Below are positions 938 to 42,755 of a stretch of 43,649 bases of DNA, in pieces. The stretch comes from Sulfuritalea sp. (GTDB lineage: Bacteria; Pseudomonadota; Gammaproteobacteria; Burkholderiales; Rhodocyclaceae): the NCBI GenBank assembly GCA_021738385.1, contig JAIPCF010000014.1, positions 1-43,649 on the forward strand, written 5' to 3'. Each line of letters begins with the position of its first letter. Position 1 is the first letter of the stretch. Both the position numbers and the translations under genes were made by a program. The notes below the pieces were generated by a model. It had not been told where the DNA came from, did not search any database, and saw nothing but the letters and a program-made list of their open reading frames with translations.

Positions 938-951
938 CCAGCGCCGACTTT
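938..951 (+). repeat. Dispersed 14-mer CCAGCGCCGACTTT, copy 1
   Basis: Exact copy in intergenic DNA, just after the oxidoreductase remnant and before a REP-like element. The preceding bases (GTGTCG) also fit the extended consensus GTATCG. See findings for the full set. Confidence 0.8.
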
Positions 952-970
952 CCAGGGACGGGCACCTGTG

Positions 971-1050
971 CCGTCATTGCGAGGAGGCGCAGCCGACGTG
1001 GCAATCCAGAAGACGCTGGATCGCCAAGGCCTGCGGCCTCGCGATGAGGG
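971..1050. repeat. REP/BIME-like inverted repeat
   Basis: The left side reads CGTCATTGCGAGGAGG ... GTGGCAATCCAG and the right side CTGGATCGCCAAGG ... CCTCGCGATGAGG. The halves are imperfect inverted copies around a short spacer (AAGACG). This is the common CATTGCGAGG-type extragenic palindrome of many proteobacteria. The right half (1015-1047) recurs as a direct repeat at 2775-2807, on the other side of hipBA. Confidence 0.7.
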
Positions 1051-1100
1051 GAGCGGGGGGCGACTTTCGAGGGTATCCGAACAGATCGTCCAAAAATATG

Positions 1101-1130
1101 TTGCCTGCCACGGCTTAATTGCATAGTATT
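1101..1130 (+). promoter_or_regulatory. Candidate hipBA promoter
   Basis: TTGCCT (1101-1106) and TAGTAT (1125-1130), 18 bp apart, make a reasonable sigma70 pair. The -10 element overlaps the left arm of the hipBA palindrome, which fits direct repression by HipB. An alternative -10 is TATTAT at 1127-1132. Confidence 0.4.
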
Positions 1131-1161
1131 ATGGGCGTTATTCTTAATAACGCCCATAATA
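1127..1161. promoter_or_regulatory. hipBA operator: perfect 16-bp inverted repeat
   Basis: TATTATGGGCGTTATT (1127-1142) is repeated exactly in reverse complement at 1146-1161, with a 3-base spacer (CTT). The right arm ends at the base before the hipB start codon. HipB-type regulators bind palindromes in their own promoter, so this is very likely the autoregulatory operator. It leaves no room for a Shine-Dalgarno sequence before the annotated start. Confidence 0.7.
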
Positions 1162-1494
1162 ATGAGCAGATTTTCCTTACCGATAGAGCCGTCAGAATGG
1201 GTCGCCCAACTTGGGCAGCGCATTCGTATTGCGCGGCTTCGGCGGGGCTGGTCGGTCGCTGACCTGGCCAGCAAGGCAGGGATCAACCGCAATACCCTGA
1301 CGGCACTTGAGATGGGGAAACCTGGCACTGCCGTTGGCGTTTGTTTTACCGTTCTGTGGGCATTGGGCCTCGACACGTCACTGGCGGCTGTTGCCGATCC
1401 GGATACTGACCTTCACGGCAAGGCGCTCGAAGCGTCCCGGCGTCCAAAGCGGGCAGGCAAGCCCAGGAAGGATCACGACGATTATGACTTCTGA
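1162..1494 (+). CDS. hipB: HipB-like XRE-family antitoxin and autorepressor
   Basis: A 110-residue protein with a Cro/C1-type helix-turn-helix (about 13-70; LGQRIRIARLRRGWSVADLA, then SKAGINRNTLTALEMGKPGTA) and a basic, disordered-looking C-terminal tail ending in KDHDDYDF. It precedes a HipA-type kinase gene with an 11-nt overlap, the canonical hipBA layout. HipB proteins neutralise HipA and repress the operon. The ATG at 1162 directly abuts the operator palindrome and lacks a visible ribosome-binding site. Either the message is near-leaderless or translation starts unusually; no better in-frame start is evident. Family assignment is confident. Confidence 0.85.
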   Translation: MSRFSLPIEPSEWVAQLGQRIRIARLRRGWSVADLASKAGINRNTLTALEMGKPGTAVGVCFTVLWALGLDTSLAAVADPDTDLHGKALEASRRPKRAGKPRKDHDDYDF

Positions 1495-2758
1495 GCGCGA
1501 GGTTTACGTCTATATCCAACTGCCCGGATCCTTGGCGACGGTGCCGGCGGCACTGCTCAGAGTGCATACACTGCCCGACGGTACGCAGGTGGGGCGGTTT
1601 CGTTATGGTGATCGTTACCTGCAACGGCCTGAGGCAGTCGCCCTCGATCCGTTTCGCTTGCCGCTGGCCAATCAGGTCGTCGAGTTTACCCAACTCAAAG
1701 GCATTCCCGGTGCCGTGCGGGATGCCGGCCCCGATGTCTGGGGCCGGCGGGTGATCGAACACAAGCTTGAGCGGAGTCCTGCCGATCTTCATGAGATCGA
1801 CTATCTGCTGAATGGTCCGCAGGACGGAGCCGGCTACCTGAGCTTTGGCCTGAAGGCTGAGCCACCCGCACCAAAACGGCATTACAACCGAACGGTCCAG
1901 TTGCCCGAACTGATCGCCGCGACCCAGGCCATCGAGGAGGGGCAGCCGATAGCCGTGCATTTGCTCGAACAACTCGATCCCGGTACCAGCATGGGCGGGG
2001 CTCGCCCCAAGGCCACGATCGAGGACGAGCAAAATCTTTGGCTCGGCAAGTTTCCTGCAAAAGATGACAGATTCAATCTGCAGCGGGTCGAATTCGCGAC
2101 CCTCGATCTTGCGCGCCGTTGTGGTCTGAACGTCACGCAGGCACGCCTGCAGTCAGTCGGCGAGAGCGATGTTCTCATGTTGCAGCGCTTTGATCGCCAG
2201 TATTGCGAAACCGGGGCTGACAAAGACTATCTGCGTTTTGGCTTGGTCAGCGGGCTGACCGTGCTTGATTGCGGAGACAGTCATCTTGAACGGGAACGCT
2301 GGTCGTACCCTCTATTGGCCGACAGTCTGCGCCGATGGTCCGACAAACCGGAAGCCGATTGCGCGGAACTATTCAAGCGGATGGTCTTCAATGCCGCTGT
2401 GACCAACAACGACGATCATCCACGCAACCACGCCTTGCTGCGCCGACAGAAAGGGTGGCGGCTGTCGCCAGCGTACGACTTGGTGCCAACTCCCGTCATC
2501 AGCCAGGAGCGACGCGATCTTGCGCTGACTGTCGGCCAATACGGTCGCACGGCCAGTATCTACAACCTGCTGTCGCAGGCGGGGCGCTTTGGATTATCGG
2601 AAGAAGAAGCTCGCGCTGAAATCAACCGGATGATTGCGGTGGTGCGAAACTGGCGCGAGATATTTTTTACCTGTGACGTGTCGGCCAGGGACATCGACGT
2701 CATCGCACCGGCACTATTGCCAGATTGCTTCTTCTTTGAAATATGGCCTGATGGGTGA
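1484..2758 (+). CDS. hipA: HipA-type serine/threonine kinase toxin
   Basis: A 424-residue HipA-family kinase. The N-subdomain is followed by the glycine-rich ATP loop GTSMGGARPKA (about 167-177), the ATP-binding lysine in LGKFP (about 189), the catalytic loop NNDDHPRN (about 308-315, Asp310 and Asn315) and the metal-binding SPAYDL (Asp332). All active-site residues are present. E. coli HipA phosphorylates GltX and halts growth; relatives act on other aminoacyl-tRNA synthetases, so the target here is unknown. The reading frame is open from 1307, but the ATG at 1484 is preferred: it has AGGAAGGA at 1465-1472 and overlaps the hipB stop by 11 nt. Direct REP-like repeats bracket the hipBA pair. 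Confidence 0.88.
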   Translation: MTSEREVYVYIQLPGSLATVPAALLRVHTLPDGTQVGRFRYGDRYLQRPEAVALDPFRLPLANQVVEFTQLKGIPGAVRDAGPDVWGRRVIEHKLERSPADLHEIDYLLNGPQDGAGYLSFGLKAEPPAPKRHYNRTVQLPELIAATQAIEEGQPIAVHLLEQLDPGTSMGGARPKATIEDEQNLWLGKFPAKDDRFNLQRVEFATLDLARRCGLNVTQARLQSVGESDVLMLQRFDRQYCETGADKDYLRFGLVSGLTVLDCGDSHLERERWSYPLLADSLRRWSDKPEADCAELFKRMVFNAAVTNNDDHPRNHALLRRQKGWRLSPAYDLVPTPVISQERRDLALTVGQYGRTASIYNLLSQAGRFGLSEEEARAEINRMIAVVRNWREIFFTCDVSARDIDVIAPALLPDCFFFEIWPDG

Positions 2759-2978
2759 ATCCGGTGCCGCTGCTGCTGGATCGCCACGGCCTTCGGCCTC
2801 GCGATGACGAGGGCGGTGGGGCGGCCTCGCGATGACGAGGGGGTGGGGGCGGCCTCGCGATGACGGGTGGGCGGCGTAGAGTGCCGTCCATGAAGCAACC
2901 CTGTGCCTCCTTGCTGAACCGAACGCGTTTGCCTCCCGGGTTGCCCCGATTGATTTCCTTGCTGACTGTTTTTCCCAT
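2700..2978 (-). CDS. Small orphan ORF with a strong ribosome-binding site, tail built from REP repeats
   Basis: On the minus strand an ATG at 2978 follows an excellent GGAGGTG with 5-nt spacing. It opens a 92-residue ORF beginning MGKTVSKEINRGNPGGKRV. Only the first 35 or so residues look like ordinary protein. From about 2880 downward the reading frame runs through the tandem REP repeats and becomes low-complexity Arg/Pro. The simplest reading is the 5' end of a gene whose remainder was lost or overwritten by repeat expansion. I do not recognise the N-terminus. Two GTCTACCT boxes (2999-3006 and 3029-3036, 30 bp apart) lie upstream. Confidence 0.3.
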   Translation of the reverse strand: MGKTVSKEINRGNPGGKRVRFSKEAQGCFMDGTLRRPPVIARPPPPPRHREAAPPPSSSRGRRPWRSSSSGTGFTHQAIFQRRSNLAIVPVR

Positions 2979-3293
2979 TCGACACCTCCAAAGATATTGT
3001 CTACCTTCAAATGTGTCCGGGAAAGCCGGTCTACCTCAATTACAGATGCAAATTACCCCCCTCAGGCGGGTCAATTCTGGTTGTATGTCAACAGCTATCC
3101 GAACCAATCGAGTCAACAAAGTGCTCTTTCGAGTCCGTTACGTCCAACCAAGGCAGTTGTCTGTTGGTCGCCGCGACTTTGCCTTGGCAAGAGAAATTGC
3201 CTGAGCCGTCATTGCCACTACGATAGCGGATTCCGGAAATTAACGCGCGGCCCGGAATGCACAACACGGATAGATTCTTGCTGGAGAACTAAC
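2759..3293. other. Accessory spacer between hipA and tRNA-Arg
   Basis: Beyond the REP block (2775-2870) and the small minus-strand ORF (start 2978), I see no supportable gene, hairpin terminator or RNA from about 3040 to 3293. The overlapping short ORFs on both strands have no recognisable motifs. Confidence 0.5.
2775..2870. repeat. REP-like element with 28-bp tandem repeat
   Basis: 2775-2807 is a direct copy (two mismatches in 33) of 1015-1047 upstream of hipBA. Its terminal unit GGCCTCGCGATGACG is reiterated with an exact 28-bp period at 2795, 2823 and 2851, separated by G-rich linkers. This looks like local amplification of a REP end rather than a CRISPR or coding repeat. Confidence 0.7.
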
Positions 3294-3369
3294 TGGCGCG
3301 CTCGGCGGGGATCGAACCCACAACCCCTGGCTTCGGAGGCCAGTACTCTATCCATTGAGCTACGAGCGC
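3294..3369 (-). tRNA. tRNA-Arg (anticodon CCG)
   Basis: A 76-nt cloverleaf on the minus strand. The acceptor stem GCGCTCG/CGAGCGC is perfect. The D arm is GCTC-AATGGAT-AGAGT, and the anticodon stem CTGGC/GCCAG encloses the loop CTCCGAA with anticodon CCG, which reads CGG. The T arm contains GGTTCGATCC. The 3' CCA is encoded (3294-3296). Its 3' end faces the accessory block on the left, the orientation expected if an element had integrated into the tRNA 3' end, although no duplicated tRNA end is visible inside the window. Confidence 0.95.
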
Positions 3370-3949: not shown

Positions 3950-3973
3950 TTTGCATGCGCGGAACCGCGTATG

Positions 3974-4011
3974 AAAAAGAAAAAGGACCGCTCGCGGTCC
4001 TTTTTCTTTTT
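3974..4011. terminator. Bidirectional rho-independent terminator
   Basis: A perfect 17-bp stem (3974-3990 with 3995-4011) closes a CTCG tetraloop. The stem is A-rich then GGACCG on the left and CGGTCC then T-rich on the right. It therefore gives a GC stem followed by a U tract in both directions, between the convergent cytochrome and helicase genes. The helicase stop codon overlaps its last base. Confidence 0.93.
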
Positions 4012-5990
4012 CAAGGCTTCGCTGAGAGCATCGCCCTCAGTTGTGCCGCCTTGGCGCGCGCGGTGCCGGCATCGGGCACGGTATTGCGTTGGTCTGCTGA
4101 CCGCTGCGCCGACTCGCCCATCTCAAGAATAAAGCGGGAGACCTCGCGCGGCATCCATTCCCGCCCCTGTTTGCGCCGCTCGCACCAGCTGACCGTCAGG
4201 CTGGCCTGGGCGCGGGTGATTCCTACGTACATCAGGCGCCGCTCTTCTTCCATCTTTGCCGGCTCGAGCGAGTCGCGATGCGGCAGCAAGCCCTCTTCAA
4301 CGCCGACGAGGAATACATGGCGAAATTCGAGCCCCTTCGCAGCGTGCAACGTGGCGAGTTGCACGGCATCCTGCTCGCCTTCATTCTTGTCCAGCATGGA
4401 CAGCAGTGCGACCGACTGGGCCAGCTCGAGCAGGGTTTTGTTTTCTTCCTCGCCTTTTCTTGCCAGCCACTCGACAAAATCGCAGACATTGGCCCATTTG
4501 GTTTGTGCCTCGGGAACATCAAGCGATTCGAACAGCCAGCTTTCGTAGCCGATGGCCTTGATCAAATCACTCAGCACTTCACCGGCCGCTTCTTTGGCTG
4601 CACGCGCCTCGATGCGATTGATGAAATCAGCGAACTCGCGCAAAGCAGTGCGTTGCCGGGTGCTGAGTTCGACATCCAGCCCCGGCGCAAATACCGTGGC
4701 AAACAGGGACTGGTGGCTGCGCCCCGCTGCGCGCCCGAGCCCTTCCAGCGTGGTGCCGCCGATGCCGCGCTTGGGCGTGGTAACGGCGCGGATGAACGCC
4801 GGATCGTCATCCTGATTGGCGAGCAATCGCAGATAGCAGGTGATGTCCTTGATTTCGGCTCGTTCGAAGAAGGATTGCCCGCCCGAGATGACATAAGGAA
4901 TGCGCTGCGCACGCAGTTGCTGCTCGATGGCCCGCGCCTGATGGTTGCCGCGATACAGAATGGCGTAGTCCGAGAACTTGGTGCGCCGCTCGAAGCGATG
5001 CGCGGAAAGCCTTGACGTTACCCACTCGGCCTCGTGATCGCCGTCCCGACAGGTCTGGATATGAATCGCCTCGCCCTGTCCATGCTCGGACCAAAGCTTC
5101 TTTTCGAATAGTTTCGGGTTGTTGGCGATCAGCGTATTAGCGGCGGTCAAAATACGGGCGGTGGAGCGGTAGTTCTGCTCCAGCTTGACCACTTTCAAAC
5201 TCGGATAATCATCCCGCAGCAGCCGCAAGTTTTCACTGTCGGCGCCGCGCCAGGCGTAGATCGATTGATCGTCGTCACCCACGGCAGTAAACGAATCGCG
5301 TCCTTGGGTCAGCAGCTGCAGTAGCCGGTACTGGCCGCGATTGGTGTCCTGATACTCGTCCACCAGTAAATGCCAGAGCCGACTGCGCCAGCGCTCGGCA
5401 ACGTCGTCATGCTCGCTGAAGAGCTTGACCGGCAGGCGGATCAGGTCATCGAAATCCACCGCCTGATAGGCGCGCAGGGTGCGCTCGTAGTCGGCATAGA
5501 GTTTTGCCGCGGCTGCCTCGCCTTCGTCGGCGGAACCCTGCAGCGCCGTTTGCGGATCGATCAGCATGTTTTTCCAGAGCGAAATCCGCGATTGCAACGC
5601 GCGCAATCGGCCCTTGTCGATGTTGCCCGCGAGTTCCTGAAACAGGGCTGTCGTATCTGCCGAGTCGAGAATTGAAAAACCGCGTTTGAGACCTACGGAA
5701 GCGGCTTCCTGTCTCAGGATACGCACGCCAAGCGCGTGAAAGGTGCTGACGATCACCCCTTCGGCGCGATCGCCGATCAGTTTGGCGACGCGTTCCTTCA
5801 TCTCCTTCGCTGCTTTGTTGGTGAAGGTGATGGCGGCAATTTGCGTCGGCTTGATGCCGTAGTCGTCGACCAGCCACGCAATCTTGTGCGTGATGACGCG
5901 CGTCTTGCCGGAACCGGCACCTGCCAGCACCAGCAGTGGCCCCTCAAGATGGCGTACGGCATCGAGTTGGGCGGGATTGAGTTTAACCAT
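4011..5990 (-). CDS. rep: ATP-dependent DNA helicase Rep/UvrD family
   Basis: A 659-residue superfamily 1A helicase. The Q motif and Walker A (NPAQLDAV, then AGAGSGKT about 23-30) are at the N-terminus. Motif Ia (ITFTNKAAKEMKERV), Walker B (LLVDEYQDTN), motif III (VGDDDQSIYAWRGA), motif IV (LEQNYRST), motif V (TLHAAKGLEFRHVF) and motif VI (RRLMYVGITRA) follow in order. Length and the MVKLNPAQ start fit Rep more than UvrD, which is longer. It would unwind DNA 3'-5' and clear proteins ahead of forks. The ATG at 5990 is chosen over an in-frame GTG at 6002. It converges on the cytochrome c5 gene across a shared terminator. Confidence 0.9.
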   Translation of the reverse strand: MVKLNPAQLDAVRHLEGPLLVLAGAGSGKTRVITHKIAWLVDDYGIKPTQIAAITFTNKAAKEMKERVAKLIGDRAEGVIVSTFHALGVRILRQEAASVGLKRGFSILDSADTTALFQELAGNIDKGRLRALQSRISLWKNMLIDPQTALQGSADEGEAAAAKLYADYERTLRAYQAVDFDDLIRLPVKLFSEHDDVAERWRSRLWHLLVDEYQDTNRGQYRLLQLLTQGRDSFTAVGDDDQSIYAWRGADSENLRLLRDDYPSLKVVKLEQNYRSTARILTAANTLIANNPKLFEKKLWSEHGQGEAIHIQTCRDGDHEAEWVTSRLSAHRFERRTKFSDYAILYRGNHQARAIEQQLRAQRIPYVISGGQSFFERAEIKDITCYLRLLANQDDDPAFIRAVTTPKRGIGGTTLEGLGRAAGRSHQSLFATVFAPGLDVELSTRQRTALREFADFINRIEARAAKEAAGEVLSDLIKAIGYESWLFESLDVPEAQTKWANVCDFVEWLARKGEEENKTLLELAQSVALLSMLDKNEGEQDAVQLATLHAAKGLEFRHVFLVGVEEGLLPHRDSLEPAKMEEERRLMYVGITRAQASLTVSWCERRKQGREWMPREVSRFILEMGESAQRSADQRNTVPDAGTARAKAAQLRAMLSAKP

Positions 5991-6018
5991 GGACGAAAGC
6001 ACCAGCCGCGCCGCACTA

Positions 6019-6032
6019 CCAGCGCCGACTTT
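6019..6032 (+). repeat. Dispersed 14-mer CCAGCGCCGACTTT, copy 2
   Basis: Exact copy in the short gap upstream of rep. It sits in the loop of an inverted repeat, AGCCGCGC (6004-6011) with GCGCGGCT (6043-6050). Confidence 0.8.
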
Positions 6033-6079
6033 TTGAAATTCAGCGCGGCTTGGCGCGCAATACTCTGCTCAGAAAATAC

Positions 6080-12472: not shown

Positions 12473-14347
12473 ATGAGTCATCAATCTGCCCTGCTGCGCA
12501 GCCGCCGCTTCGCGCCGCTGTTCATCACCCAATTGCTCGGCGCGCTCAATGACAACGTGCTCAAGAACGCCATGGTCGTACTGCTGACCTTTCAGGCGGC
12601 GAGCTGGACCACGTTGAAGCCCGAACTGCTGGCCAATCTGGCGGCGGGCATTTTCATCCTGCCCTTCTTCCTCTTTTCGGCTACTGCCGGACAACTGGCG
12701 GACAAGTACGACAAGGCGGCGCTGGCACGCTTCACCAAGCTGCTGGAAATCGGCATCGTGGTGGTGGCCGGAGTGGGCTTTGCGATGCACAGCCTGGAAG
12801 TGTTGTTTGCCAGCCTGTTTCTGATGGGTCTGCAGTCTGCCTTGTTCGGCCCGGTCAAGTACGCGATTCTGCCGCAGCACCTTGAAAGTGACGAACTGGT
12901 CGGAGGCAATGCCCTGATCGAGGCCGGCACATTTGTCGCGATTCTGGTCGGCACCCTGCTCGGTGGCCTGCTGGCAGGGAGTGAAAGCGGCATGGGTCTG
13001 ATCACGGTAACGGGTCTGGTCATCGCCGTAGTCGGCTATCTGAGTTCGCGTGCCATTCCCGTCGCCGTACCACCAGCGCCGACTTTGGTGATCGGCCTCA
13101 ATCCCCTGACCGAGACCTGGCACAATATCCGCTTCGCGCGGGACAACGAGACCGTATTTCTTTCCATCCTCGGCATCTCCTGGTTCTGGCTGTTCGGCGC
13201 CCTGTTTCTCGCCCAGTTCCCGGCCTATACCAAGGAAGTGCTGGGCGGCAACGAGACAGCCGTGACTTTGCTGCTTGCCACCTTCACCTTCGGCATCGGC
13301 GTCGGCTCGTTGCTATGTGAAAAACTCTCGGCCGGACGCGTCGAACTCGGCTTGGTGCCGCTGGGTTCGATCGGCATGACGCTGTTCGCGCTCGATCTAG
13401 CCTTCGCCTCGCCGGCGACCCCTGCTGCAGCACTTGGCGCGATGGCCTTGCTCGAACTCGGATCGACCTGGCGTGTGCTGATCGATCTGGCCCTGCTCGG
13501 TGCGTTTGGCGGTCTATTCATTGTCCCGCTCTACGCTCTGGTGCAGCAGCGCTCGAACCCCGAGCATCGCGCCCGCATCATTGCCGCCAACAACATTCTC
13601 AACGCCCTGTTCATGGTGGTCGGCGCCGCAGCAGCCGGTGGCCTACTCTCGGCAGGCTTGTCGATTCCTGCCCTGTTCGCAGTGGCGGCAGTCTGCAATG
13701 CGGCGGTGGCGCTTTTCATCTACGGCCTGGTGCCCGAGTTCCTGCTGCGCTTTGTAGTCTGGGTACTGATTCACATCGTGTATCGACTGCGCACCAAAGG
13801 ACTCGACCAAGTGCCCGAAGAAGGCCCGGCGGTAATTGTCTGCAACCATGTCAGCTTCGTCGATGCGCTGGTGATTATGGCCGCCTGCCGCCGTCCGATC
13901 CGCTTCGTCATGGATCACGGCATCTTTCGCTGGCCAGTGCTGAATTTCGTGTTCCGCACCAGCAAGGCCATCCCGATTGCCTCGGCCAAGGAAGATCCGG
14001 CGATGATGGAAAAAGCCTTCGATGAAGTCGCCCGGGCGCTCGATGCCGGCGATCTGGTCGGCATATTTCCGGAAGGCAAGATCACCGCCGACGGCAACAT
14101 CAATCCCTTCCGCCCCGGCATCACGCGCATCCTCGCCCGCAACCCGGTGCCCGTGGTGCCGATGGCGCTGCGCGGGCTCTGGGGCAGCTTCTTCTCGCGC
14201 AAGGATGGCCCGGCCATGTCGCGCCCGTTTCGTCGCGGTCTGTTCTCGCGCATCGAGCTGGTGACAGGTGCGGTGGTGTTGGCGGCGGAGGCCTTGCCGG
14301 AACGGCTGCAGGCGGATGTGGCGGTGTTGCGCGGGGATATGGCGTAG
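12473..14347 (+). CDS. MFS lysophospholipid transporter fused to a PlsC-type acyltransferase
   Basis: A 624-residue fusion. Residues 1-420 form a 12-helix major-facilitator domain that begins with FITQLLGALNDNVLKNAMVV, as in LplT. Residues about 435-624 are a glycerolphosphate acyltransferase domain with NHVSFVD (458-464) and FPEGKIT (532-538), the catalytic NHx4D and substrate-binding motifs. Such fusions flip lysophospholipids inward and reacylate them, a membrane repair function like LplT plus part of Aas; the acyl-ACP synthetase domain of Aas is absent. A copy of the dispersed 14-mer (13073-13086) sits in a loop-coding segment (PPAPTL). Confidence 0.88.
   Translation: MSHQSALLRSRRFAPLFITQLLGALNDNVLKNAMVVLLTFQAASWTTLKPELLANLAAGIFILPFFLFSATAGQLADKYDKAALARFTKLLEIGIVVVAGVGFAMHSLEVLFASLFLMGLQSALFGPVKYAILPQHLESDELVGGNALIEAGTFVAILVGTLLGGLLAGSESGMGLITVTGLVIAVVGYLSSRAIPVAVPPAPTLVIGLNPLTETWHNIRFARDNETVFLSILGISWFWLFGALFLAQFPAYTKEVLGGNETAVTLLLATFTFGIGVGSLLCEKLSAGRVELGLVPLGSIGMTLFALDLAFASPATPAAALGAMALLELGSTWRVLIDLALLGAFGGLFIVPLYALVQQRSNPEHRARIIAANNILNALFMVVGAAAAGGLLSAGLSIPALFAVAAVCNAAVALFIYGLVPEFLLRFVVWVLIHIVYRLRTKGLDQVPEEGPAVIVCNHVSFVDALVIMAACRRPIRFVMDHGIFRWPVLNFVFRTSKAIPIASAKEDPAMMEKAFDEVARALDAGDLVGIFPEGKITADGNINPFRPGITRILARNPVPVVPMALRGLWGSFFSRKDGPAMSRPFRRGLFSRIELVTGAVVLAAEALPERLQADVAVLRGDMA
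13073..13086 (+). repeat. Dispersed 14-mer CCAGCGCCGACTTT, copy 3
   Basis: Exact copy inside the MFS-acyltransferase gene, read there as Pro-Ala-Pro-Thr-Leu in an interhelical loop. Confidence 0.8.
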
Positions 14348-14748: not shown

Positions 14749-14791
14749 GCCGGGCGCCAGCCGGTTTGAAAGGGTCAAGAACGCCGTATCG

Positions 14792-14805
14792 CGAGCGCCG
14801 ACTTT
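14792..14805 (+). repeat. Dispersed 14-mer, copy 4 (one mismatch)
   Basis: CGAGCGCCGACTTT, one base off the consensus, preceded by GTATCG as in the extended form. It lies in the convergent gap between the ArsC-like gene and lipA, inside a small inverted repeat GCGAGC (14791-14796) / GCTCGC (14811-14816). Confidence 0.65.
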
Positions 14806-14817
14806 TTGTGGCTCGCT

Positions 14818-16621: not shown

Positions 16622-17568
16622 GCCCGCATGACCGTCGCCTTGAACTCCTGATACCAGTCGTACATCTGCGCGAATAGCGGGCCTGGCGCACCCGTGTCGC
16701 CATCCGCTACGGCGAGGAGAGCGTTCTTTGCTCGACCGCCTTGTAGCGCAGTTGCTTCATCAGCGCCGAGTTTTGCATCTGCGCATACGCCAATCGCCTT
16801 GCCGTCCAGCATGACAATAGGCAACACTTCCTTGGTCGATGAGCACATCCACAACTCGTCGGCGCTGCGTGTTTCGGCCTCGGAGATATCGCGCACCTCA
16901 TACGGCAATCCATGTTGCGCGGCGAGTTCGAGAACAATGTCGTAGGTGATGCCCGGCAGCATCAGATGGTTCTTGATCGGTGCCAGCAGTACGCCGTTCT
17001 TGATGACAAAAATCGACGAGGCGGAACCTTCGGTCAGAAATCCATCGCGAAACAGTACGGTTTCTGCACACCCGGCCGACACGGCCAGCTGGCGCAGCAG
17101 GCAATTGGCCAGCAGCGAGGTGGTCTTGAGTTCGCAGTGCAGCCAGCGAATATCGGCGGCCGACACTGCGGCGATGCCTTGTTCGCGCAGCTTCGCGGGT
17201 GAAGTGAGCAAAGGTTCCGCCAGCAACAGCACGGTCGGTGTAATCACCTGAGGAAAGGCATGATTGCGCACCGTCATCGGCCCGCGCGTAACCTGAACAT
17301 AAATAGACTGGTCTTCCGATTCGGCTTCACGCGTGAGCTGGGTGACAAAGCCGATCCATTCCTCCATGCGATAGGGATTGGCCAACTGTATGCCATCCAG
17401 GCTTTTTTGCAGGCGTGCCAGATGCTGCTCGAGGCGGAACGCACGGCGCGAATAAACCGGGATCACTTCATAAACACCGTCGCCAAACAGAAAGCCGCGG
17501 TCCATCACCGACACCCTGGCGTCCTGCGCCGGCAGCCATTCACCGTTGAGAAACACCCGGGCCGTCAT
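16618..17568 (-). CDS. dat: D-amino acid aminotransferase (class IV PLP enzyme)
   Basis: A 316-residue fold-type IV aminotransferase. FLFGDGVYEVIPVYSRRAFR matches the N-terminal substrate-site region, Lys148 in CELKTTSLLANCL is the Schiff-base lysine, and EGSASSIFVI plus MLPGITYDIVLEL complete the cofactor site. It interconverts D-alanine, D-glutamate and keto acids, supplying peptidoglycan precursors, which suits its place after a D,D-carboxypeptidase. Compared with relatives I know, residues about 261-290 (VCADAKLGADEATALQ and following) look like an extra segment between KAIG and GAPGPLF. That segment carries a variant of the dispersed 14-mer in a hairpin. Confidence 0.85.
   Translation of the reverse strand: MTARVFLNGEWLPAQDARVSVMDRGFLFGDGVYEVIPVYSRRAFRLEQHLARLQKSLDGIQLANPYRMEEWIGFVTQLTREAESEDQSIYVQVTRGPMTVRNHAFPQVITPTVLLLAEPLLTSPAKLREQGIAAVSAADIRWLHCELKTTSLLANCLLRQLAVSAGCAETVLFRDGFLTEGSASSIFVIKNGVLLAPIKNHLMLPGITYDIVLELAAQHGLPYEVRDISEAETRSADELWMCSSTKEVLPIVMLDGKAIGVCADAKLGADEATALQGGRAKNALLAVADGDTGAPGPLFAQMYDWYQEFKATVMRA
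16746..16784. repeat. Hairpin with variant dispersed motif inside the aminotransferase gene
   Basis: GCGCAGTTGC (16746-16755) pairs with GCATCTGCGC (16775-16784) with one mismatch. The loop contains TCAGCGCCGAGTTTT, a variant of the dispersed word with GAGTTTT for GACTTT. It falls within the apparently extra protein segment. Confidence 0.4.
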
Positions 17569-18772: not shown

Positions 18773-19756
18773 CTAGCGCTGCACCCGGATCGGCGTCATG
18801 CCAAGGCTCTCGCGCAGGCGAACTCCCACCTGCTCTGCAGAGGTGGCATCAAGCCAGGGCCCGAGCTGAACACGGAATATTTTTCCTGCAGACTGGATCA
18901 CAAGTTTTTCAGCAAGGCTTCCCAGTTCTCGTGCGAGTCGCTCGCGCAAGGCCTCAGCGTTGTCGCGACTGCCAAAGGCACCCAGTTGTAGAAAATGGCC
19001 GCCGCTGTTCTCTACCTGAGGCAACGATGGCTCGGGGTCCGCTACGGCGATTTTTTCGTACGGATCTTCGGTCGCCGCTGGCGCCGGTGCAGCAGCAAGT
19101 TCCTGCCCCGGCAGAATGCTTTCCACCTCGACCACGGTGCTGCCCTTTCCTATGTAGCCAAGCTTGTGCGCCGCCGTCCAGGATAGATCGATCAGCCGAT
19201 CATCGTGGAACGGCCCGCGGTCATTGACTCGCACCACCACTGACTTTCTGTTGGCAGGATTGGTGACGCGAACATAGGAAGGGATGGGCAGCGTTGGATG
19301 CGCCGCTGTCATGCCGTACATGTCGTAGCGCTCGCCGCTCGAGGTTTTCTGCCCGTGAAACTTGCGCCCGTACCAGCTGCCGATGCCGCGCGCCTTGTAG
19401 GGCAGAATCTCGCGCTGCGGCACATAGCTTTTCCCCAGCACCGTGTACGGCTTGTTGGCGAAGCGGTGCAGCGGCTCGTCACGCGGCGTCGCATCGGGAA
19501 TCGCTTCAATATCTTCCGGCTCGGCATCGCCCGGACCGTCATCCTTGTAAAAGCCGCCGCTGTACTTGATGTCCGACGTCCGGGTTTTGCCGTCGCCCTT
19601 GAAAGTCGGCGCTGGCGATACGGCGCCCGGATCGGCACGATCTATTACCGGGCGTGGAGCTTGGCTACCGCAGGCGGCGAGCAAGACAGGAAGAACCAGT
19701 AAAGATAGACGCCGCAAAAAATGGTACCTGCCGGCAAAAAGTGTTTGGGCCATCAT
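18773..19756 (-). CDS. rlpA: RlpA family septal-ring lytic transglycosylase lipoprotein
   Basis: A 327-residue lipoprotein. A lipobox LLAAC places the acylated cysteine at about residue 29. A linker is followed by a double-psi beta-barrel domain (GIGSWYGRKFHGQKTSSGER ... RVNDRGPFHDDRLIDLS, about 123-200) and a C-terminal SPOR domain (about 250-327) that binds denuded septal glycans. RlpA of Pseudomonas cleaves glycan strands lacking stem peptides, which fits the adjacent carboxypeptidase and rod-complex genes. It starts in a 4-nt overlap with rodA; a second ATG follows at 19753. The linker codes through a copy of the dispersed 14-mer. Confidence 0.9.
   Translation of the reverse strand: MMAQTLFAGRYHFLRRLSLLVLPVLLAACGSQAPRPVIDRADPGAVSPAPTFKGDGKTRTSDIKYSGGFYKDDGPGDAEPEDIEAIPDATPRDEPLHRFANKPYTVLGKSYVPQREILPYKARGIGSWYGRKFHGQKTSSGERYDMYGMTAAHPTLPIPSYVRVTNPANRKSVVVRVNDRGPFHDDRLIDLSWTAAHKLGYIGKGSTVVEVESILPGQELAAAPAPAATEDPYEKIAVADPEPSLPQVENSGGHFLQLGAFGSRDNAEALRERLARELGSLAEKLVIQSAGKIFRVQLGPWLDATSAEQVGVRLRESLGMTPIRVQR
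19602..19615 (-). repeat. Dispersed 14-mer CCAGCGCCGACTTT, copy 5
   Basis: Exact copy on the minus strand within rlpA, read as Pro-Ala-Pro-Thr-Phe in the linker after the lipobox. The preceding bases CGTATCG match those of the ccmI copy exactly. Confidence 0.8.
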
Positions 19757-24492: not shown

Positions 24493-25959
<1,467 letters not shown>

Positions 25960-25963
<4 letters not shown>

Positions 25964-27486
25964 GTGATTTGATCAATTCATCGCTGCGTGAACTATCCGC
26001 AGCCCTTGCCGCAAAGAAAATTTCCGCTGTCGAACTTGCGACCCTGTTTCTCGACCGCGTCGAAACGCTTAACCCGACACTCAACGCCTTCATCACCACC
26101 GACCGCGAGAAAACCCTGGCCCAGGCACGCGCCGCGGACGAAACGCGAAAACTCGGCGCTGGCTCGCTTTGCGTGCCTGGAACTCCGCTGCGCGGGCAGG
26201 CAACGGCGAGCCTCCCCTTGTGCGGCATCCCTTTGGCGCACAAGGATATTTTCTGCACTCAGGGCTGGCGTACCAGTTGCGGTTCGAAGATGCTGGAAAA
26301 CTTTGTCGCACCTTATGATGCCAACGTGGTCGAAAAACTCGCCGCCGCCGGCATGGTGTCGCTGGGCAAACTAAACATGGACGAGTTCGCCATGGGTTCG
26401 TCGAACGAAGCCTCTTTCTTCGGGCCGGTGAAAAACCCGTGGGATACCGACCGCGTGCCCGGCGGCTCATCCGGCGGTTCGGCGGCGGCCGTTGCAGCGC
26501 GGCTGACACCAGCCGCCACCGGCACCGATACCGGCGGCTCGATCCGTCAACCTGCGGCAATGTGCGGCCTGACCGGAATCAAGCCGACCTACGGTGTGGT
26601 GTCGCGCTACGGCATGATCGCCTTTGCCTCCAGCCTCGACCAGGGCGGTCCCCTGGCCAAGAGCGCAGAGGATTGCGCCCTGTTGCTCGGCGCCATGGCC
26701 GGTTTCGATGCGCGCGATTCCACGTCGCTGGAACGCCCGGCCGAAGACTACAGCCGCGATCTGAGCAGGCCGCTGGATGGATTAAAAATTGGTTTGCCGA
26801 AAGAGTTTTTCGGCCCCGGCATGGACGACGATGTCCGCGTCGCGGTCGAGGCCGCCCTGACCGAATATCGCAAACTGGGCGCCACCACGGTGGACGTCTG
26901 CCTGCCCAATTCGGGATTGTCCGTACCCGCGTATTACGTCATTGCCCCGGCGGAAGCCAGCTCCAATCTCTCACGCTTTGATGGCGTGCGCTACGGCTAT
27001 CGGGCGCCCGACTACGATACGCTTGAGGAAATGTACTCGCGCAGCCGGGCACAGGGCTTCGGCTCCGAAGTAAAGCGCCGCATCCTGATGGGTACTTATG
27101 TGCTGTCCCACGGCTATTACGATGCCTACTATTTGCAGGCGCAGAAAATTCGACGCCTCATCGCCGCCGACTTTTCCGCCGCGTTTGAGCAATGCGATGT
27201 AATCATGGGGCCGACTACGCCTTCGGTGGCCTTCCCCATTGGTTCGAAAAGCACCGACCCGGTGCAAATGTACCTGTCGGACATCTACACCGTTTCCGCC
27301 AATCTGGCCGGACTGCCGGGCATTTCCGTGCCTTGCGGTTTCGGCGCAGGGCAACCGGACAAACCGATGCCGGTGGGTCTGCAAATCATCGGGAAGTGGT
27401 TCGATGAGGCCAGAATGTTGAATGTTGCACACCAATACCAGCAAGTTACCGACTGGCATACGCGAATGCCGGAGGTGACAAAATGA
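25960..27486 (+). CDS. gatA: Glutamyl-tRNA(Gln) amidotransferase subunit A
   Basis: A 508-residue amidase-signature enzyme that releases ammonia from glutamine for tRNA-dependent amidation. The Lys-cisSer-Ser triad is present: Lys95 in AHKDIF, Ser170/171 in GGSSGGSAA and Ser194 in [11 protein letters not shown]. Residues about 65-84 ([20 protein letters not shown]) look longer than the short loop I expect between the N-terminal helix and [11 protein letters not shown]. The DNA there (26149-26212) contains a near-copy of the dispersed 14-mer and a hairpin. The frame is kept, so the enzyme is probably functional. 4-nt overlaps join it to gatC and gatB. Confidence 0.93.
26149..26212. repeat. Near-copy of the dispersed motif plus hairpin inside gatA
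   Basis: AAACTCGGCGCTGG (26149-26162) is one mismatch from the reverse complement of the 14-mer. It abuts a nested palindrome: GGCTCGC (26161-26167) with GCGAGCC (26206-26212), and GCCTG (26175-26179) with CAGGC (26197-26201). The layout resembles a small REP-like insertion kept in frame. Confidence 0.45.
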
Positions 27487-28931
27487 GCTGGGAAGTCGTT
27501 ATCGGGCTGGAAACTCACGCCCAACTGAGGACACAAGCAAAGATATTTTCCGGTAGCAGCATCGCTTTTGGGGCCGAACCAAACGCGCAGGCCAACGCCG
27601 TGGATATTGCCCTGCCTGGTGTTCTGCCCGTACTCAATCGCGAGGCCGTGGTTTGCGCCATCAAGCTGGGTCTGGCGGTCGGTGCCCAGATTGCGCCGCG
27701 CTCCATATTCGCCCGCAAGAACTACTTCTATCCGGATCTGCCCAAGGGCTATCAGATCAGCCAGTTCGAGATCCCGGTGGTCATGGGCGGCGGGCTCGCC
27801 ATAAAAGTCGGCGCTGGCAACACGGCAGCTGACAAGTACGTGCGCCTGACCCGCGCCCATCTCGAAGAGGATGCAGGCAAGTCACTGCACGAAGACTTCC
27901 ACGGTCGCACCGGCATTGATCTGAACCGGGCCGGCACGCCGCTGCTGGAAATCGTCACCGAACCGGACATGTGCTCGTCCACCGAGGCCGTTGCCTATGC
28001 CCGGACCTTGCACGCCCTGGTGCAATGGATCGGCATTTGCGACGGCAACATGCAGGAAGGCTCGTTCCGCTGCGACGCCAATGTCTCGGTGCGCCGCCCT
28101 GGCGAGCCACTCGGTACCCGCCGCGAGATCAAGAACCTGAACTCCTTCCGCTTCATGCAGCAGGCCATCGACTTTGAAGTGCAGTGGCAGATCAACGAAA
28201 TCGAGGAAGGCCGGGCCATCCGGCAGGCCACCGTGCTATTCGATCCCGAAACGGGAGAAACGCGCTCCATGCGCAGCAAGGAAGACGCGCACGATTACCG
28301 CTACTTCCCCGACCCCGACCTGCTGCCGCTGGAAATTACCCCTGACTGGATCGCGCAGATTCAATCCGAACTGCCCGAGTTGCCGCAAGCCATGAAGCAG
28401 CGCTTTGAAACCGAGCTCGGCTTGTCGCCCTATGACGCGGCAACACTCACCGCTTCGCGCGAAATGGCTGCATATTTCGAAGCGGTGCTCGATGTGGCCG
28501 GCAAGGAGAATGCCAAGCCGGCAGCAAACTGGGTGATGGGCGAACTCGCAGCCCGGCTCAACAAGGAAGACAAGGAAGTTCCGGCGGCGCCCGTGTCCGC
28601 TATCCAGCTCGCCGGAATTATTCGCCGCGTTGCCGACAACACGATTTCCAACAAGATCGCGCGCGACGTGTTCGAGGCACTGTGGAATGGTGAAGCTGCG
28701 GACGCAGATGCGGTCATCGAAGCCCGCGGCTGGAAACAGATCACCGATACCGGCGCAATCGACGCGCTGGTCGATGAAGTGCTTGCGGCCAACCAGAAAT
28801 CTGTCGATGAATACCGCGCCGGCAAGGAAAAGGCCTTCAACGCGCTTGTCGGCCAGGCAATGAAAGCCACCCGAGGCAAGGCCAATCCGCAACAGGTCAC
28901 TGAGTTGCTGAAAAAGAAACTCGGCGGCTGA
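27483..28931 (+). CDS. gatB: Aspartyl/glutamyl-tRNA amidotransferase subunit B
   Basis: A 482-residue GatB, which binds the misacylated tRNA and activates its carboxylate. It begins [20 protein letters not shown], and includes [14 protein letters not shown]-like ([19 protein letters not shown]), [15 protein letters not shown] and [13 protein letters not shown]. The C-terminal YqeY/tail domain (about 330-482) ends [16 protein letters not shown]. All regions are present and the length is normal. An opposite-strand copy of the dispersed 14-mer (27804-27817) codes here for Lys-Val-Gly-Ala-Gly. Confidence 0.95.
27804..27817 (-). repeat. Dispersed 14-mer CCAGCGCCGACTTT, copy 6
   Basis: Exact copy on the minus strand, inside plus-strand gatB. 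The gene reads it as AAA-GTC-GGC-GCT-GG, in a different frame sense from the other coding copies. Confidence 0.8.
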
Positions 28932-38574: not shown

Positions 38575-40529
38575 TTCCCGAACTCGGACACTTTGCTCTA
38601 ATTCTTGCCTTCGCGGTTTCCATCGCCCAGGGCGTACTGCCACTGGTCGGTGCCGGGACCGGAAGGTTCGGCGGCCAGGCACAATGGATCGCACTGGCGC
38701 GGCCGGCCGCTCAAACACAGTTTCTGCTGATTGCCTTCGCTTTTGGTTGCCTCGCTCAGAGTTTTCTCGTCAGCGACTTTTCCGTGGCCTATGTCGCCAA
38801 TCACTCCAATACACAGTTGCCGACGATGTATCGCTTTTCCGCCGTATGGGGTGGTCATGAAGGATCTTTGCTGCTGTGGGTGCTGATGCTAGCCGGCTGG
38901 AGCGCCGCAGTGTCGGTGGCTTCGCACCAGTTGCCCGAAATCATGGTCGCCCGCGTGCTGGCGGTTCTCGGTTTGGTCGGCATCGGCTTGCTGGCATTCA
39001 TCCTGTTTACCTCGAACCCCTTCGACCGCATGTTGCCGGCCGCTGCGGAAGGGCGTGACCTCAATCCACTGCTGCAGGACCCGGGCCTGATCTATCATCC
39101 GCCCCTGCTCTACATGGGCTATGTGGGTTTTTCGGTGGCATTTGCATTTGCCATTGCGGCGCTGATTTCGGGCCGTCTCGACGCAGCCTGGGCACGCTGG
39201 TCAAGACCATGGACTACCGCAGCCTGGGTTTTTCTCACGCTCGGCATTGCACTCGGCAGTTGGTGGGCGTACTACGAATTGGGCTGGGGCGGCTGGTGGT
39301 TCTGGGATCCGGTGGAAAATGCCTCGTTTATGCCCTGGCTGGTAGGCACGGCGCTGATTCATTCCCTGGCTGTAACCGAAAAGCGCGGTGCCTTCAAGAA
39401 CTGGACGGTGCTGCTGGCCATCGCGGCGTTTTCGCTCTCACTGCTCGGTACCTTCCTGGTCCGCTCCGGCGTGCTGACATCGGTGCACGCCTTCGCCACC
39501 GATCCGCGTCGCGGCGTGTTTATCCTGGCACTGCTCGTCATCGTGGTGGGTAGTTCGCTGGCCTTGTTTGCCTGGCGCGCACCGAAAGTCAGCGCAGGGG
39601 GCAAGTTCGAGCTGATTTCTCGCGAAACCATGTTGCTGATGAACAATGTGCTGCTGGTGGTCGCAACCGGCAGCGTTCTGCTTGGCACGCTCTACCCGCT
39701 TCTGATCGATGCTCTAGGCATGGGCAAGCTTTCGGTCGGACCGCCTTACTTCAATGCGGTCTTTGTTACCGTCATGGTGCCGCTGCTGCTACTGATGGCT
39801 ATCGGGCCGATGGCGCGCTGGAAACATGCCGACCTCAAGGCCATCGCGCTTCGCTTGCGGATCAGCATGGGTCTTGCGGTGCTTGCAGGAATTGCCCTGC
39901 CGCTGCTGATGGGCAACTGGACGCTGCTAACCGCCATGAGTTCCCTGCTTGCCGTTTGGATTACCGCCAGCGGCGTGTTCCAGATAATGGATCGCTTGAA
40001 AACCGGGAAGCCTTCGGCTTCGTTCTGGGGCATGCATGTGGCCCATTTCGGCATCGCGGTATTTGTCATCGGCGTCGCCATGGTGGGCGGCTATCAGGAA
40101 GAGAAAGACGTTCGCATGGCACCGGGTGACACCGTACATGTCGGCGGTTACGGTTTTCGGCTACTTGAGGTGAAGGACGCTCCAGGCCCCAATTATCGTG
40201 CGTCGGTGGGTACGGTAGAGCTGTCCAAGGACGGTCGCGTATTGAAAACCATGCATCCTGAAAAGCGCAACTACTTTTCATCCCAGATGCCGATGACGGA
40301 AGCCGCCATCGATGCCGGCTTCACACGCGACGTCTATGTTTCGCTGGGCGAACCGCTCGACAACACGGGCGCCTGGAGTGTGCGGGTGTATTACAAACCG
40401 TTCGTTGACTGGATCTGGGGCGGTTGTCTTCTGATGAGTTTGGGCGGATTCATTGCCATGCTCGATCGTCGCTACCGTCTGCGCGTCAAAGCCGGCGTCA
40501 GCCTGCCGGCTGGGGGAGTTCCAGCTTGA
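38571..40529 (+). CDS. ccmF: Cytochrome c haem lyase subunit CcmF
   Basis: A 652-residue polytopic protein with about 15 helices. The haem-handling WWD motif [20 protein letters not shown] lies near residues 238-257. The conserved [16 protein letters not shown] segment is near the N-terminus, and a periplasmic domain precedes the last helix. It ligates haem to apocytochromes with CcmH. The next gene starts at a TTG overlapping its stop by 4 nt. Confidence 0.95.
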
Positions 40530-41050
40530 AGCGATTTCTTATCCCGCTGGTCGTGTTTGTTGTACTGGTGATTTTTCTTGCCATCGGCCTGACGCTCAAT
40601 CCGCGCGACTTGCCCTCACCGCTGAAAGACAAGCCGGCGCCCGCATTCACCTTGCCGCAACTGGCGGCGGCGGACAAGGCTTTTTCACCCGCGGACATGA
40701 AAGGCAAGGTCTGGCTGCTCAACGTATGGGCTTCGTGGTGCGTGTCCTGCCGCCAGGAACATCCGGTCCTGATGGACCTCGCTAAATCGGGCAGCGTGCC
40801 TATCGTCGGCCTCGATTACAAGGATCAGATTGATGACGCAAAAAACTGGCTGAAGAAGTACGGTGATCCCTATGTGGTTTCCGCCGTCGATGCGGACGGC
40901 CGGGTGGGTATCGACTACGGCGTCTATGGCGTGCCGGAAACCTATGTCATCGACAAGGCCGGCATGATTCGCCTCAAACACACGGGCCCGATCACGCCCG
41001 ATTCGCTGAAAACGCAAATCTTGCCCCTGGTCGCGGAGTTGTCAAAATAA
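40526..41050 (+). CDS. ccmG: Thiol-disulfide oxidoreductase CcmG/DsbE
   Basis: A 174-residue membrane-anchored thioredoxin-fold protein. One helix (about 4-23) precedes the active site NVWASWCVSCRQEHP (Cys72, Cys75) and the cis-proline region YGVPETYVIDKAG. It reduces apocytochrome haem-binding cysteines. The start is a TTG at 40526, with GGGGGAG at 40512-40517 and a TTGA overlap with the ccmF stop. The frame is open to 40424, but that extension lies inside ccmF and is not family-like. It overlaps ccmH by one base. Confidence 0.92.
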   Translation: MKRFLIPLVVFVVLVIFLAIGLTLNPRDLPSPLKDKPAPAFTLPQLAAADKAFSPADMKGKVWLLNVWASWCVSCRQEHPVLMDLAKSGSVPIVGLDYKDQIDDAKNWLKKYGDPYVVSAVDADGRVGIDYGVYGVPETYVIDKAGMIRLKHTGPITPDSLKTQILPLVAELSK

Positions 41051-41511
41051 TGCTGCGCACGCTACTTGTTTGCTACACCCTGGTGTTTGGCGGCACGACA
41101 ATGGCCAACGAGGCTGCACCGATGGCAGCCGATGTCGTTGTCGAGAAACGCTTGATGGAGATCAGCGAAGAATTGCGCTGTCTGGTTTGCCAGAACGAGA
41201 CCATTGCCGCCTCACGCGCCGATCTGGCCCTGGATCTGCGGCGCGAGATTCGCACAATGATCGCCGAGGGCAAGACCGACAAGGAAATTCTGGATTTCAT
41301 GGTCGAGCGCTATGGCGATTTTGTACGCTACCGGCCCCCGGTGAAGCCGACCACCTGGCTGCTCTGGGCCGGCCCATTTGTGCTGCTGGCGGGCGGTATT
41401 GCTGCTCTCATTGCCTTTCTGCGACGACGAGTCAAGGACGAGGCGGCTCCTGAGCTTTCCGAAGAAGAACGTCGCCGCGCTGCGGCTTTGCTGGACCAGT
41501 CCAACTCATGA
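41050..41511 (+). CDS. ccmH: Cytochrome c-type biogenesis protein CcmH (CycL)
   Basis: A 153-residue protein with a signal peptide (about 1-19), a periplasmic three-helix domain bearing LRCLVCQN (Cys44, Cys47) and one C-terminal membrane helix (about 104-125). The cysteine pair handles apocytochrome thiols with CcmG. It starts at an ATG sharing one base with the ccmG stop (TAATG). It overlaps ccmI by 4 nt. Confidence 0.93.
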   Translation: MLRTLLVCYTLVFGGTTMANEAAPMAADVVVEKRLMEISEELRCLVCQNETIAASRADLALDLRREIRTMIAEGKTDKEILDFMVERYGDFVRYRPPVKPTTWLLWAGPFVLLAGGIAALIAFLRRRVKDEAAPELSEEERRRAAALLDQSNS

Positions 41512-42755
41512 TTCCCTTTTACCTTGCAGTGGCGGCGCTGGTCGTCGTCGCCCTGATACTGCTATTGCGCCCCTGGTGGCCTGGCTCACGCCGTATCGCC
41601 AGCGCCGACTTTTCACCGGAGCTCAATGCCGCAATCCATCGTGATCGACTTGCGGAATTGGAGCGCGACCGCAGCAATGGCTCCTTGTCTGAAAGTGACT
41701 TGACCGAGGCCCGCGAAGAGTTGCAGCGGCAGCTTCTTGACGACACCGCTGCCGTGGAGGCGGTCGCCGCCGACAGGTTCGGCGGCCGCGCCGGCGTCGC
41801 GGTAGCCATCCTGTTGCCACTCGCAGCTGTGGCTTTGTATGCGCTGCTGGGCAGTCCGGCTGCGGTACTGCCCGTCGACGTACAGATACAGAAAGCTGCC
41901 GGCGATATGGAGCAACTCACCGCCAAGCTGGCAAAAAGGCTCGAGGACAAGCCCGACAATCCCCAAGGCTGGTTGATGTTGGGGCGCTCCTATAAATCGC
42001 TGGGGCGCTGGGATGATGCCGAGCGCGCCTTCGCCCGGATCGGGCCCGAGTTGAACAAGAACGCAGAATGGCTGGCGGAGCTTGCCGAGTTGCTGATACA
42101 AAAGAACAATGGATACAACGAACAAGCACGCCAGCTCATTCGTCAGGCATTGCAACTCGAACCCGGCAACATGCTGGCTCTTTTTATGGCCGGTGGTGAT
42201 GCCTTCAGCGGCGAGCGCTTTGCCGAAGCTATCGCGCATTGGGAACGCTTGCTGCCACAACTCGAGCCCGGCGGTGAAGATGCCCGCATGGTTGAATCGG
42301 CCATGGCCAAAGCGCGTCAACGAGGCGGTCTGGCACCGAAAATTGCCGCCGCAAACAAGGGGGCGCCTCAGAGTACCGCCAAAACCGCGAAGGGTACAGC
42401 GATAGCCGCGGGTAAATCGGTCAGCGGCCGGGTCGAACTGTCTCCAGCGCTGAAAGACAAAGCCATGCCCGATGATGTCGTCTTCATCTTTGCCCGTGCG
42501 ATCAACGGTCCACGCATGCCGCTTGCTGCTCTGCGCGTGCGTGTCGCCGATCTGCCACTGGACTTCATGCTCGACGACACGAAGGCGGTGATGCCGAGTG
42601 CGACGATTTCTTCGGTGGAAGAATTGCGCGTCGAAGCACGTGTCTCAAAATCCGGCAAAGCAACGCCAGGTAAAGGCGACCTGACCGGCAAGAGCCCGAC
42701 CGTGAAGCCAGGCGCCAAAGGTCTGAGGATTGTGATCGACACGATCAATCCCTGA
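41508..42755 (+). CDS. ccmI: Cytochrome c-type biogenesis TPR protein CcmI (CycH)
   Basis: A 415-residue apocytochrome chaperone. Two membrane helices (about 3-21 and 95-114) flank a cytoplasmic leucine-zipper-like loop (LNAAIHRDRLAELERDRSNG). TPR repeats (about 145-260, LMLGRSYKSLGRWDDAERAF) and a C-terminal beta domain (about 300-415) follow. It presents apocytochrome C-termini to CcmF-CcmH. The dispersed 14-mer at 41599-41612 codes for Ala-Ser-Ala-Asp-Phe just before the loop. It is the last gene before the nap promoter. Confidence 0.92.
   Translation: MIPFYLAVAALVVVALILLLRPWWPGSRRIASADFSPELNAAIHRDRLAELERDRSNGSLSESDLTEAREELQRQLLDDTAAVEAVAADRFGGRAGVAVAILLPLAAVALYALLGSPAAVLPVDVQIQKAAGDMEQLTAKLAKRLEDKPDNPQGWLMLGRSYKSLGRWDDAERAFARIGPELNKNAEWLAELAELLIQKNNGYNEQARQLIRQALQLEPGNMLALFMAGGDAFSGERFAEAIAHWERLLPQLEPGGEDARMVESAMAKARQRGGLAPKIAAANKGAPQSTAKTAKGTAIAAGKSVSGRVELSPALKDKAMPDDVVFIFARAINGPRMPLAALRVRVADLPLDFMLDDTKAVMPSATISSVEELRVEARVSKSGKATPGKGDLTGKSPTVKPGAKGLRIVIDTINP
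41599..41612 (+). repeat. Dispersed 14-mer CCAGCGCCGACTTT, copy 7
   Basis: Exact copy in ccmI, read in the frame Ser-Ala-Asp-Phe. It is preceded by CGTATCG exactly as in the rlpA copy, so those two share 21 identical bases. Confidence 0.8.

Follow-up and report, generated by a model that had tools for sequence, protein, structure and literature searches.

Dispersed through a 43,649-nt stretch of Sulfuritalea sp. DNA (Rhodocyclaceae; contig JAIPCF010000014.1, positions 1 to 43,649; hereafter the window) is a 25-nt word, CGCCGT[A/G/C]TC[G/A]CCAGCGCCGACTTTT, the core of which is a 14-mer singled out in an initial annotation of this DNA. We found that the word recurs genome-wide and is spelled differently in different clades, and, by analogy with known systems, we favor (at roughly 55%) its being a self-recognition word of the DNA uptake sequence (DUS) type in a new lineage. 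Seven full 25-mers, scored with a position weight matrix (PWM), lie in the window. Two are intergenic, at 928..952 (+; 39.5 bits; exact 14-mer at 938) and 14782..14806 (+; 38.2 bits; 14-mer with one mismatch), and one, at 6009..6033 (+; 34.2 bits), begins 7 nt past the start end of a UvrD/Rep-type helicase gene (4011-6002, -; by Pfam). The others lie within genes: 13063..13087 (+; 36.4 bits) in an MFS-acyltransferase gene (12473-14347, +; by Pfam); 19601..19625 (-; 40.7 bits) in an rlpA-like gene (18773-19756, -), whose product has Pfam DPBB_1 (lytic transglycolase) and SPOR domains and is presumably RlpA; 27803..27827 (-; 39.0 bits) in gatB (27483-28931, +; named from an annotated match), where it is read as KVGAGNTA in a loop with orthologs in congeners; and 41589..41613 (+; 43.4 bits) in a ccmI/cycH-like gene (41508-42755, +) with Pfam Ig_CycH and TPR_CcmH_CycH domains. 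A long form, consisting of GCCGT, a 40-nt hairpin-bearing spacer with a covarying stem and CCAGCGCCGAGTTTT, occupies 26148..26208 (-) in the 5′ part of an amidase gene (25960-27486, +; Amidase by Pfam, and gatA by its position beside gatB).

All six exact and both one-mismatch copies of the 14-mer that were reported initially are present at their positions, and the window holds 12 matches with up to two mismatches, against a mean of 0.46 and a maximum of 3 in 100 dinucleotide shuffles. The copy at 26149 (-) is among them; it has no left half adjoining, being the long form, in which GCCGT lies 45 nt upstream instead of 9 with the hairpin between. For the extended form proposed along with the 14-mer, a more accurate description is a 25-nt word in which columns -4, -3, -1, +3 and +10 vary. 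Among exact copies of the window's genome (38 contexts from the window and 30 fetched loci of its 227 places, some of which overlap), conservation runs from -10 to +14 relative to the 14-mer and ends abruptly on either side. The short form can accordingly be written as CGCCGT, three loose letters, [G/A] and CCAGCGCCGACTTTT, where +3 can be [G/T/A/C] and +10 [C/G]. A weak right-half match (16750..16774, +; 19.2 bits) lies within an insertion of 78-90 nt that the window's genome carries relative to congener loci L256 and L265; this module, at about 16680-16790, sits at a linker of the kind that bears the word. Separately, intergenic REP-like (repetitive extragenic palindromic) repeats, GGATCGCCA(C/A)GGCCT..GGCCTCGCGATGA, are found at 960-1080 and 2770-2870, one of them adjoining the 928 copy.

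The genome-wide count proposed in the initial annotation returned 227 exact 14-mers in the window's genome (122 forward, 105 reverse; assembly 82% complete) and none of the reversed word, and a degenerate 23-mer has 390 copies. The PWM, trained and rescanned on the same 424,379 bases, which comprise the window and 20 other stretches, gives 80 matches of at least 23.6 bits, or about one per 5.3 kb (about 0.19 per kb). The scores are near-bimodal: only five further matches have 18-20 bits, and a single additional one exceeds 8. With the matrix reversed there is at most one match, and in simulated fifth-order sequence there are 0-2. The excess over a Markov model, also suggested as a check, is large: a 12-mer of the motif is seen 46 times in the sample of the window's genome against 0.5 expected under a fifth-order model, and such a 12-mer ranks first by excess in five of six sampled genomes, the exception being G016. 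Shuffles, reversed controls, PWM controls and the fifth-order excess together rule out chance or composition as the source of the word.

Across the window's genome and 100 relatives, the exact 14-mer is present in all 31 searched genomes of the genus, from 5 copies (G016) to 286 (G014), with the reversed word at 0-2 per genome. In other genera of the family it reaches 189 copies in G037, 102 in G048 and 10 in G052, and the remaining 27 family genomes have 0-4. An order-wide sample of 399 genomes shows more than five copies only in the window's genome, G048, G209 and G306, all of the same family, with at most five in any sampled genome outside it. Among 80 named gatB loci, matches of at least 26 bits occur only at L084, L085, L087-L091 and L103, and matches of 18-24 bits at L083, L098, L111 and L124; no match reaches 18 bits at the loci titled Azonexus (3), Dechloromonas (1), Thauera (3) and Zoogloea (3). 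The congener G016, which is almost without the word, has six matches in 304 kb; its most overrepresented 12-mers, headed by repeats of the CAGAGGCGCAGAG type, include no substitute word. A plasmid search with the 3-kb window piece 25900-28900 yielded one record, 10% covered, in gatB.

Gene context was taken from a simple open reading frame caller, by which 85% of the DNA is coding. By this measure 39 of the 80 sites lie in genes and 41 outside, the latter including seven of one tandem array. The in-gene copies are divided between sense (19) and antisense (20) and use four of the six frame classes (10 and 9 in two sense classes, 17 and 3 in two antisense classes, 0 in the remaining two); as two classes are empty, some peptides seem to be avoided. 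The presence of copies on both gene strands and in four of six frame classes rules out protein-level conservation as the sole cause, and the initial proposal that selection or spread acts on DNA rather than protein is borne out by copies on both strands, in coding and non-coding DNA and in several frames. Strand organization was analyzed for 100 of the 108 CCAGCGCCGACTCT places of the complete congener G002: 52 are on the plus and 48 on the minus strand, in 54 runs against 51 expected, with no strand domains, and a polar motif is thereby rejected for the places examined.

The spelling of the word falls into dialects. GACTTT is nearly the sole spelling in the window's genome (227:5) and in its sister G014 (286:6), and the alternative CCAGCGCCGACTCT, with 5 copies in the window's genome, has 108 in G002 and 125 in G003. 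A third spelling, CCAGCGCCAACTCT (AAC), is found 157, 181 and 199 times in G001, G015 and G027, respectively, where CCAGCGCCGACTCT has 13, 16 and 15 copies, and 0-1 times in the other 28 congeners. A three-gene protein tree (FastTree, midpoint root, support values not printed) recovers G001, G015 and G027 as one clade nested among G-spelling species and pairs the window's genome with G014. At shared loci, with sites called blind to the dialect letters, the letter A is found at 11 of 11 sites in the AAC clade versus 3 of 101 in other genomes. For G027, 402 kb were sampled (20 stretches and L269); AAC forms of the word are the top 12-mers there, and A is present at 73 of 80 sites in the 20 stretches. 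The -4/-3 preference also differs, being CC in G037 and G048 and AT in the window's genome. This is a word with a clade-specific spelling altered at orthologous positions; since orthologous sites are respelled in place, a trans-acting recognizer, or a conversion process of the same effect, is indicated. The initial suggestion of a genome-wide recognition word is thus upheld at the DNA level by hundreds of copies, both strands, several frames and a clade spelling altered in place.

An alternative raised from the outset is a small mobile repeat, akin to REP or palindromic elements, for which a transposase acting in trans would help to place new copies in linkers and intergenic DNA, and of which the hairpin and arrays described below would be active or older forms. 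The site in the MFS gene is gapless across all 21 aligned congener loci; the ccmI site has a 3-nt insertion in congener L202 and keeps its length in 27 others (a further row, L222, matches poorly and is probably a paralog); and at gatB the loop of several word-less species is 12 nt shorter, with other short modules in others. Short hairpin modules other than the word share its linkers, e.g., CCCCGAAGG...CCTTGGGG in gatB of L236 and L248, and such a different hairpin repeat in the same loop speaks for mobility. In a pooled test of 92 sites with 383 empty-ortholog comparisons, which are not independent because a few loci supply many rows, not one differs by the 22-28 nt of a clean unit insertion, with one comparison at -21 and three at -33 nt. 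Only 159 of the 383 are length-neutral, versus 93% of 2009 comparisons at random positions, and 85 lie at -9 to -15 nt, versus 0.8% at random positions; the rest are scattered from -60 to +107 nt. We read this as a word that occupies indel-prone linkers and was not inserted as a fixed unit. Spread via recombination of word-bearing alleles would fit; for the DUS of Neisseria, one study argues for recombination-driven spread and also reports copies opposite gaps in other genomes (PMC2397512).

In-place respelling combined with the lack of any 22-28-nt empty-site difference favors a trans-read word, like the DUS with its dialects, over a transposed unit. Fresh insertion would not result in the joint respelling of orthologous copies, and about half of the copies lie in genes; on the other side, the 41 of 80 copies that are intergenic compare with only about 15% non-coding DNA, and the empty sites are rich in indels. 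The check for transposases associated with REP elements (RAYT) returned two Y1-type genes in the window's genome, neither bracketed by the word: the open frame of the first is preceded, at about 120 nt, by one copy, which could be taken in favor of mobility, and the second has one some 930 nt from the matched stretch. In the flanks of L080, a Y1-type transposase gene lies amid TTAAAGGGGTCAGC repeats, which constitute a separate dispersed repeat. The mobile-repeat explanation therefore emerges weakened by the share of copies in genes, the 0 of 383 unit insertions and the unbracketed Y1 genes, with some mobility still suggested by the hairpin, the arrays and the phage copies, and we regard it as unlikely.

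For six right halves in the sample, no left half adjoins, and five of these have GCCGT exactly 45 nt upstream rather than 9, so that the long form is the short form plus 36 nt, an internal hairpin seen in 5 of 85 copies. In its stem, 7 of the 12 pairs show compensatory change on both sides across six sequences (the five long forms and one related hairpin). The long form at 26148-26208 is 36 nt longer than a congener's short form at that place, where other congeners have no word. An intergenic tandem array of the window's genome (L051:5841-6079) has seven copies at mostly ~28-nt spacing and one further copy split by an extra module, and 54-nt tandem arrays occur in G048, of genus g19 (L059:6170-6400, L060, L061, L062, L063); in these the word and an imperfect inverted copy of it form a long stem. 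The array of the window's genome, the palindromic arrays of G048 and the covarying stem in five copies are each what a mobile repeat might leave. The hairpin is also compatible with another explanation, namely a site for a chromosomal DNA-binding protein with a different job, such as nucleoid structure, segregation or a recombination/repair hot spot, the sites being spread over both strands and the spelling shifting with the protein. The same dialect and in-place data speak for such a site, no ComEA would be necessary, and the insert, if extruded, would bring the two half-sites together. KOPS- or matS-like sites are expected to show strand or positional domains, and none is evident at the G002 places examined; moreover, exact copies range from 5 to 286 between congeners. 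We consider such a site rather improbable.

The word is also carried by viruses. The pattern GCCGTNNYRCCANCGCCGASTTT occurs in at least 120 viral-contig stretches, with none for the reversed pattern, and the AAC pattern in only four. The 80 viral loci among the matches listed hold 99 copies, and ten proteins from three of them include members of the terminase, integrase, RecT-like and exonuclease VIII families; hence, at least these three loci look phage. For the 95 copies whose flanks are complete, 20 pairs have both flanks in common, 34 the left only and 11 the right only, i.e., 45 of 65 flank-sharing pairs are one-sided (these are not independent, as many come from one repeated left module), against 0-3 at points shifted by 100-150 nt. 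Such mosaic junctions, together with RecT-like or exonuclease VIII proteins at two of the three loci scanned, raise the possibility that the word provides phage annealing proteins with a short stretch of homology at which modules are exchanged. Taken to its limit, this would make the word phage-borne and phage-maintained, with host copies as recombination footprints, which we view as highly improbable: copies lie in conserved genes at orthologous places, the spelling follows the host tree, the AAC spelling is scarce among viral stretches, and isolated phage genomes gave partial matches only (8 records). As an observation apart from this, viral loci L279-L358 (e.g., L354:10241-10440) have a TTAG-/TAAC-type string within 45 nt of 18 of the 99 copies, compared to 3.2% of random positions (n = 5000) and, in stretches of the window's genome, 2 of 52 same-pattern copies. 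We take these strings to be attC-like sequences; they may reflect gene cassettes in phages.

The initial annotation had proposed to look for competence genes. A ComEC domain is found in 30 of the 31 genomes of the genus; a pilin of the ComP_DUS family is likewise found in 30 of the 31, and overall in 92 of the 101 genomes searched. The ComP-family pilin of the window's genome matches solved type IV pilins, and its gene adjoins a second pilin gene, which we assume to be GspH/FimT-like. We posit a factor that binds DNA in trans with a preference for DNA bearing the word, and that is probably a ComP- or GspH/FimT-like minor type IV pilin; same-lineage DNA would then be preferentially taken up and recombined, by which copies would spread and be repaired at permissive places. 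A shift in the preference of the factor would drive genome-wide rewriting in place and give rise to clade dialects, and loss of the factor or of its use would let the copies decay, as potentially happened in G016. The basis for this is the abundance of the word, its shape, its dialects, the orthologous respelling and one lineage nearly without it; from these we infer the factor, uptake, the recombination drive and, for G016, loss rather than never having had the word.

Uptake is the best fit among the functions considered, as the initial annotation had surmised for the word, and the following points weigh against it. No short ComEA-type match was found in 30 of the 31 genus genomes by a PF12836 (HHH_3) search, an absence that is not secure because the search came back empty in 11 of the 31, the complete G002 included. 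The only two short secreted HHH_3 proteins are in G016 (L481, L482), the very congener nearly without the word; the weaker PF12836 matches of that genome are in frames of 181, 213 and 314 aa, the first two with a start and a signal-like stretch and the third GspK-like in look, as we judge it. Strong matches, present in 19 of the 31 genomes and in none of the other 12 (again including G002), fall within 550-940-aa open frames and probably represent Tex, not ComEA; either that gene is patchy or the PF12836 search has gaps. ComP_DUS pilins do not track the word, being present in most word-less genomes and in G016, and with the family in 92 of 101 genomes their presence fails as an explanation of its distribution. 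The even spacing anticipated for an uptake signal is not seen, the G002 places being spaced like random points (coefficient of variation 0.95 vs. 0.99), and the number of close pairs does not exceed chance (5, array excluded, against 2.6 expected and a simulation maximum of 8). The structured internal insert and the tandem arrays are odd for a plain DUS; the indel-rich empty sites and the viral copies belong here as well. Finally, the 25-nt word is about twice as long as the 12-nt DUS and, at about 0.19 per kb, compares with about 2.5 per kb for the DUS of K. oralis, which has 5918 copies in 2.4 Mb (PMC3630211). A further reading is more tentative: a separate, hitherto undescribed Rhodocyclaceae self-recognition system might use a bipartite 25-nt word whose halves stand 4 nt apart or 40 nt apart by way of a folded-away 36-nt hairpin, respelled in place when the receptor shifts, with a ComEA-free receptor pathway and module junctions exploited by phages.

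If the word is indeed an uptake sequence, it would add a third lineage, one that has a word peculiar to it, dialects and a near-word-less line, and in which the debate of drive versus selection becomes testable by comparison, since conversion at orthologous sites can be traced on a tree. The AAC clade, its G-spelling neighbors and G016 offer ready material for a receptor hunt. If it is not, it would be some other kind of chromosomal word that forms dialects, an outcome at least equally surprising. We know of no third family with uptake words. Those of the Neisseriaceae and Pasteurellaceae are well known (PMC7811141); our searches for literature on DNA uptake sequences in Rhodocyclaceae, natural transformation in Sulfuritalea or five spellings of parts of the word found none, and broader searches gave no title pointing to Rhodocyclaceae among the matches listed.

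Compared to known systems, the word most resembles the DUS of the Neisseriaceae, ATGCCGTCTGAA, a 12-nt sequence read by the minor pilin ComP. Both number in the hundreds of copies, which occupy either strand and genic as well as intergenic DNA, with clade dialects, unequal use of frames and a betaproteobacterial host that has a ComP_DUS-family pilin; the sequences are unrelated save for the GCCGT start. The CTG core is invariant among neisserial dialects, and the word does not match this, having CAG/CTG there with the G 75% conserved in the window's genome. It also differs from the DUS in having no excess of close inverted pairs, no ComEA-type protein found, a hairpin form and tandem arrays. 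Studies of Neisseria report the CTG core of the DUS dialects (PMC3630211) and dialects, in-gene copies and recombination-linked spread (PMC3630211, PMC2397512). The uptake signal sequence (USS) of the Pasteurellaceae is likewise partly degenerate, dispersed and acts at the DNA level, and belongs to a different host class. The USS is long, as is the word, and unrelated to it in sequence. REP and REPIN elements with RAYT share dispersal, occasional arrays and hairpins, and the window's genome does have Y1-type transposases; REP elements are mostly extragenic, whereas 39 of 80 copies of the word are in genes, with no 22-28-nt unit insertion, with respelling in place and with no pair of words flanking either Y1 gene. 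Unlike motifs of the KOPS, Chi or matS type, the word shows no strand or position bias in the G002 places examined.

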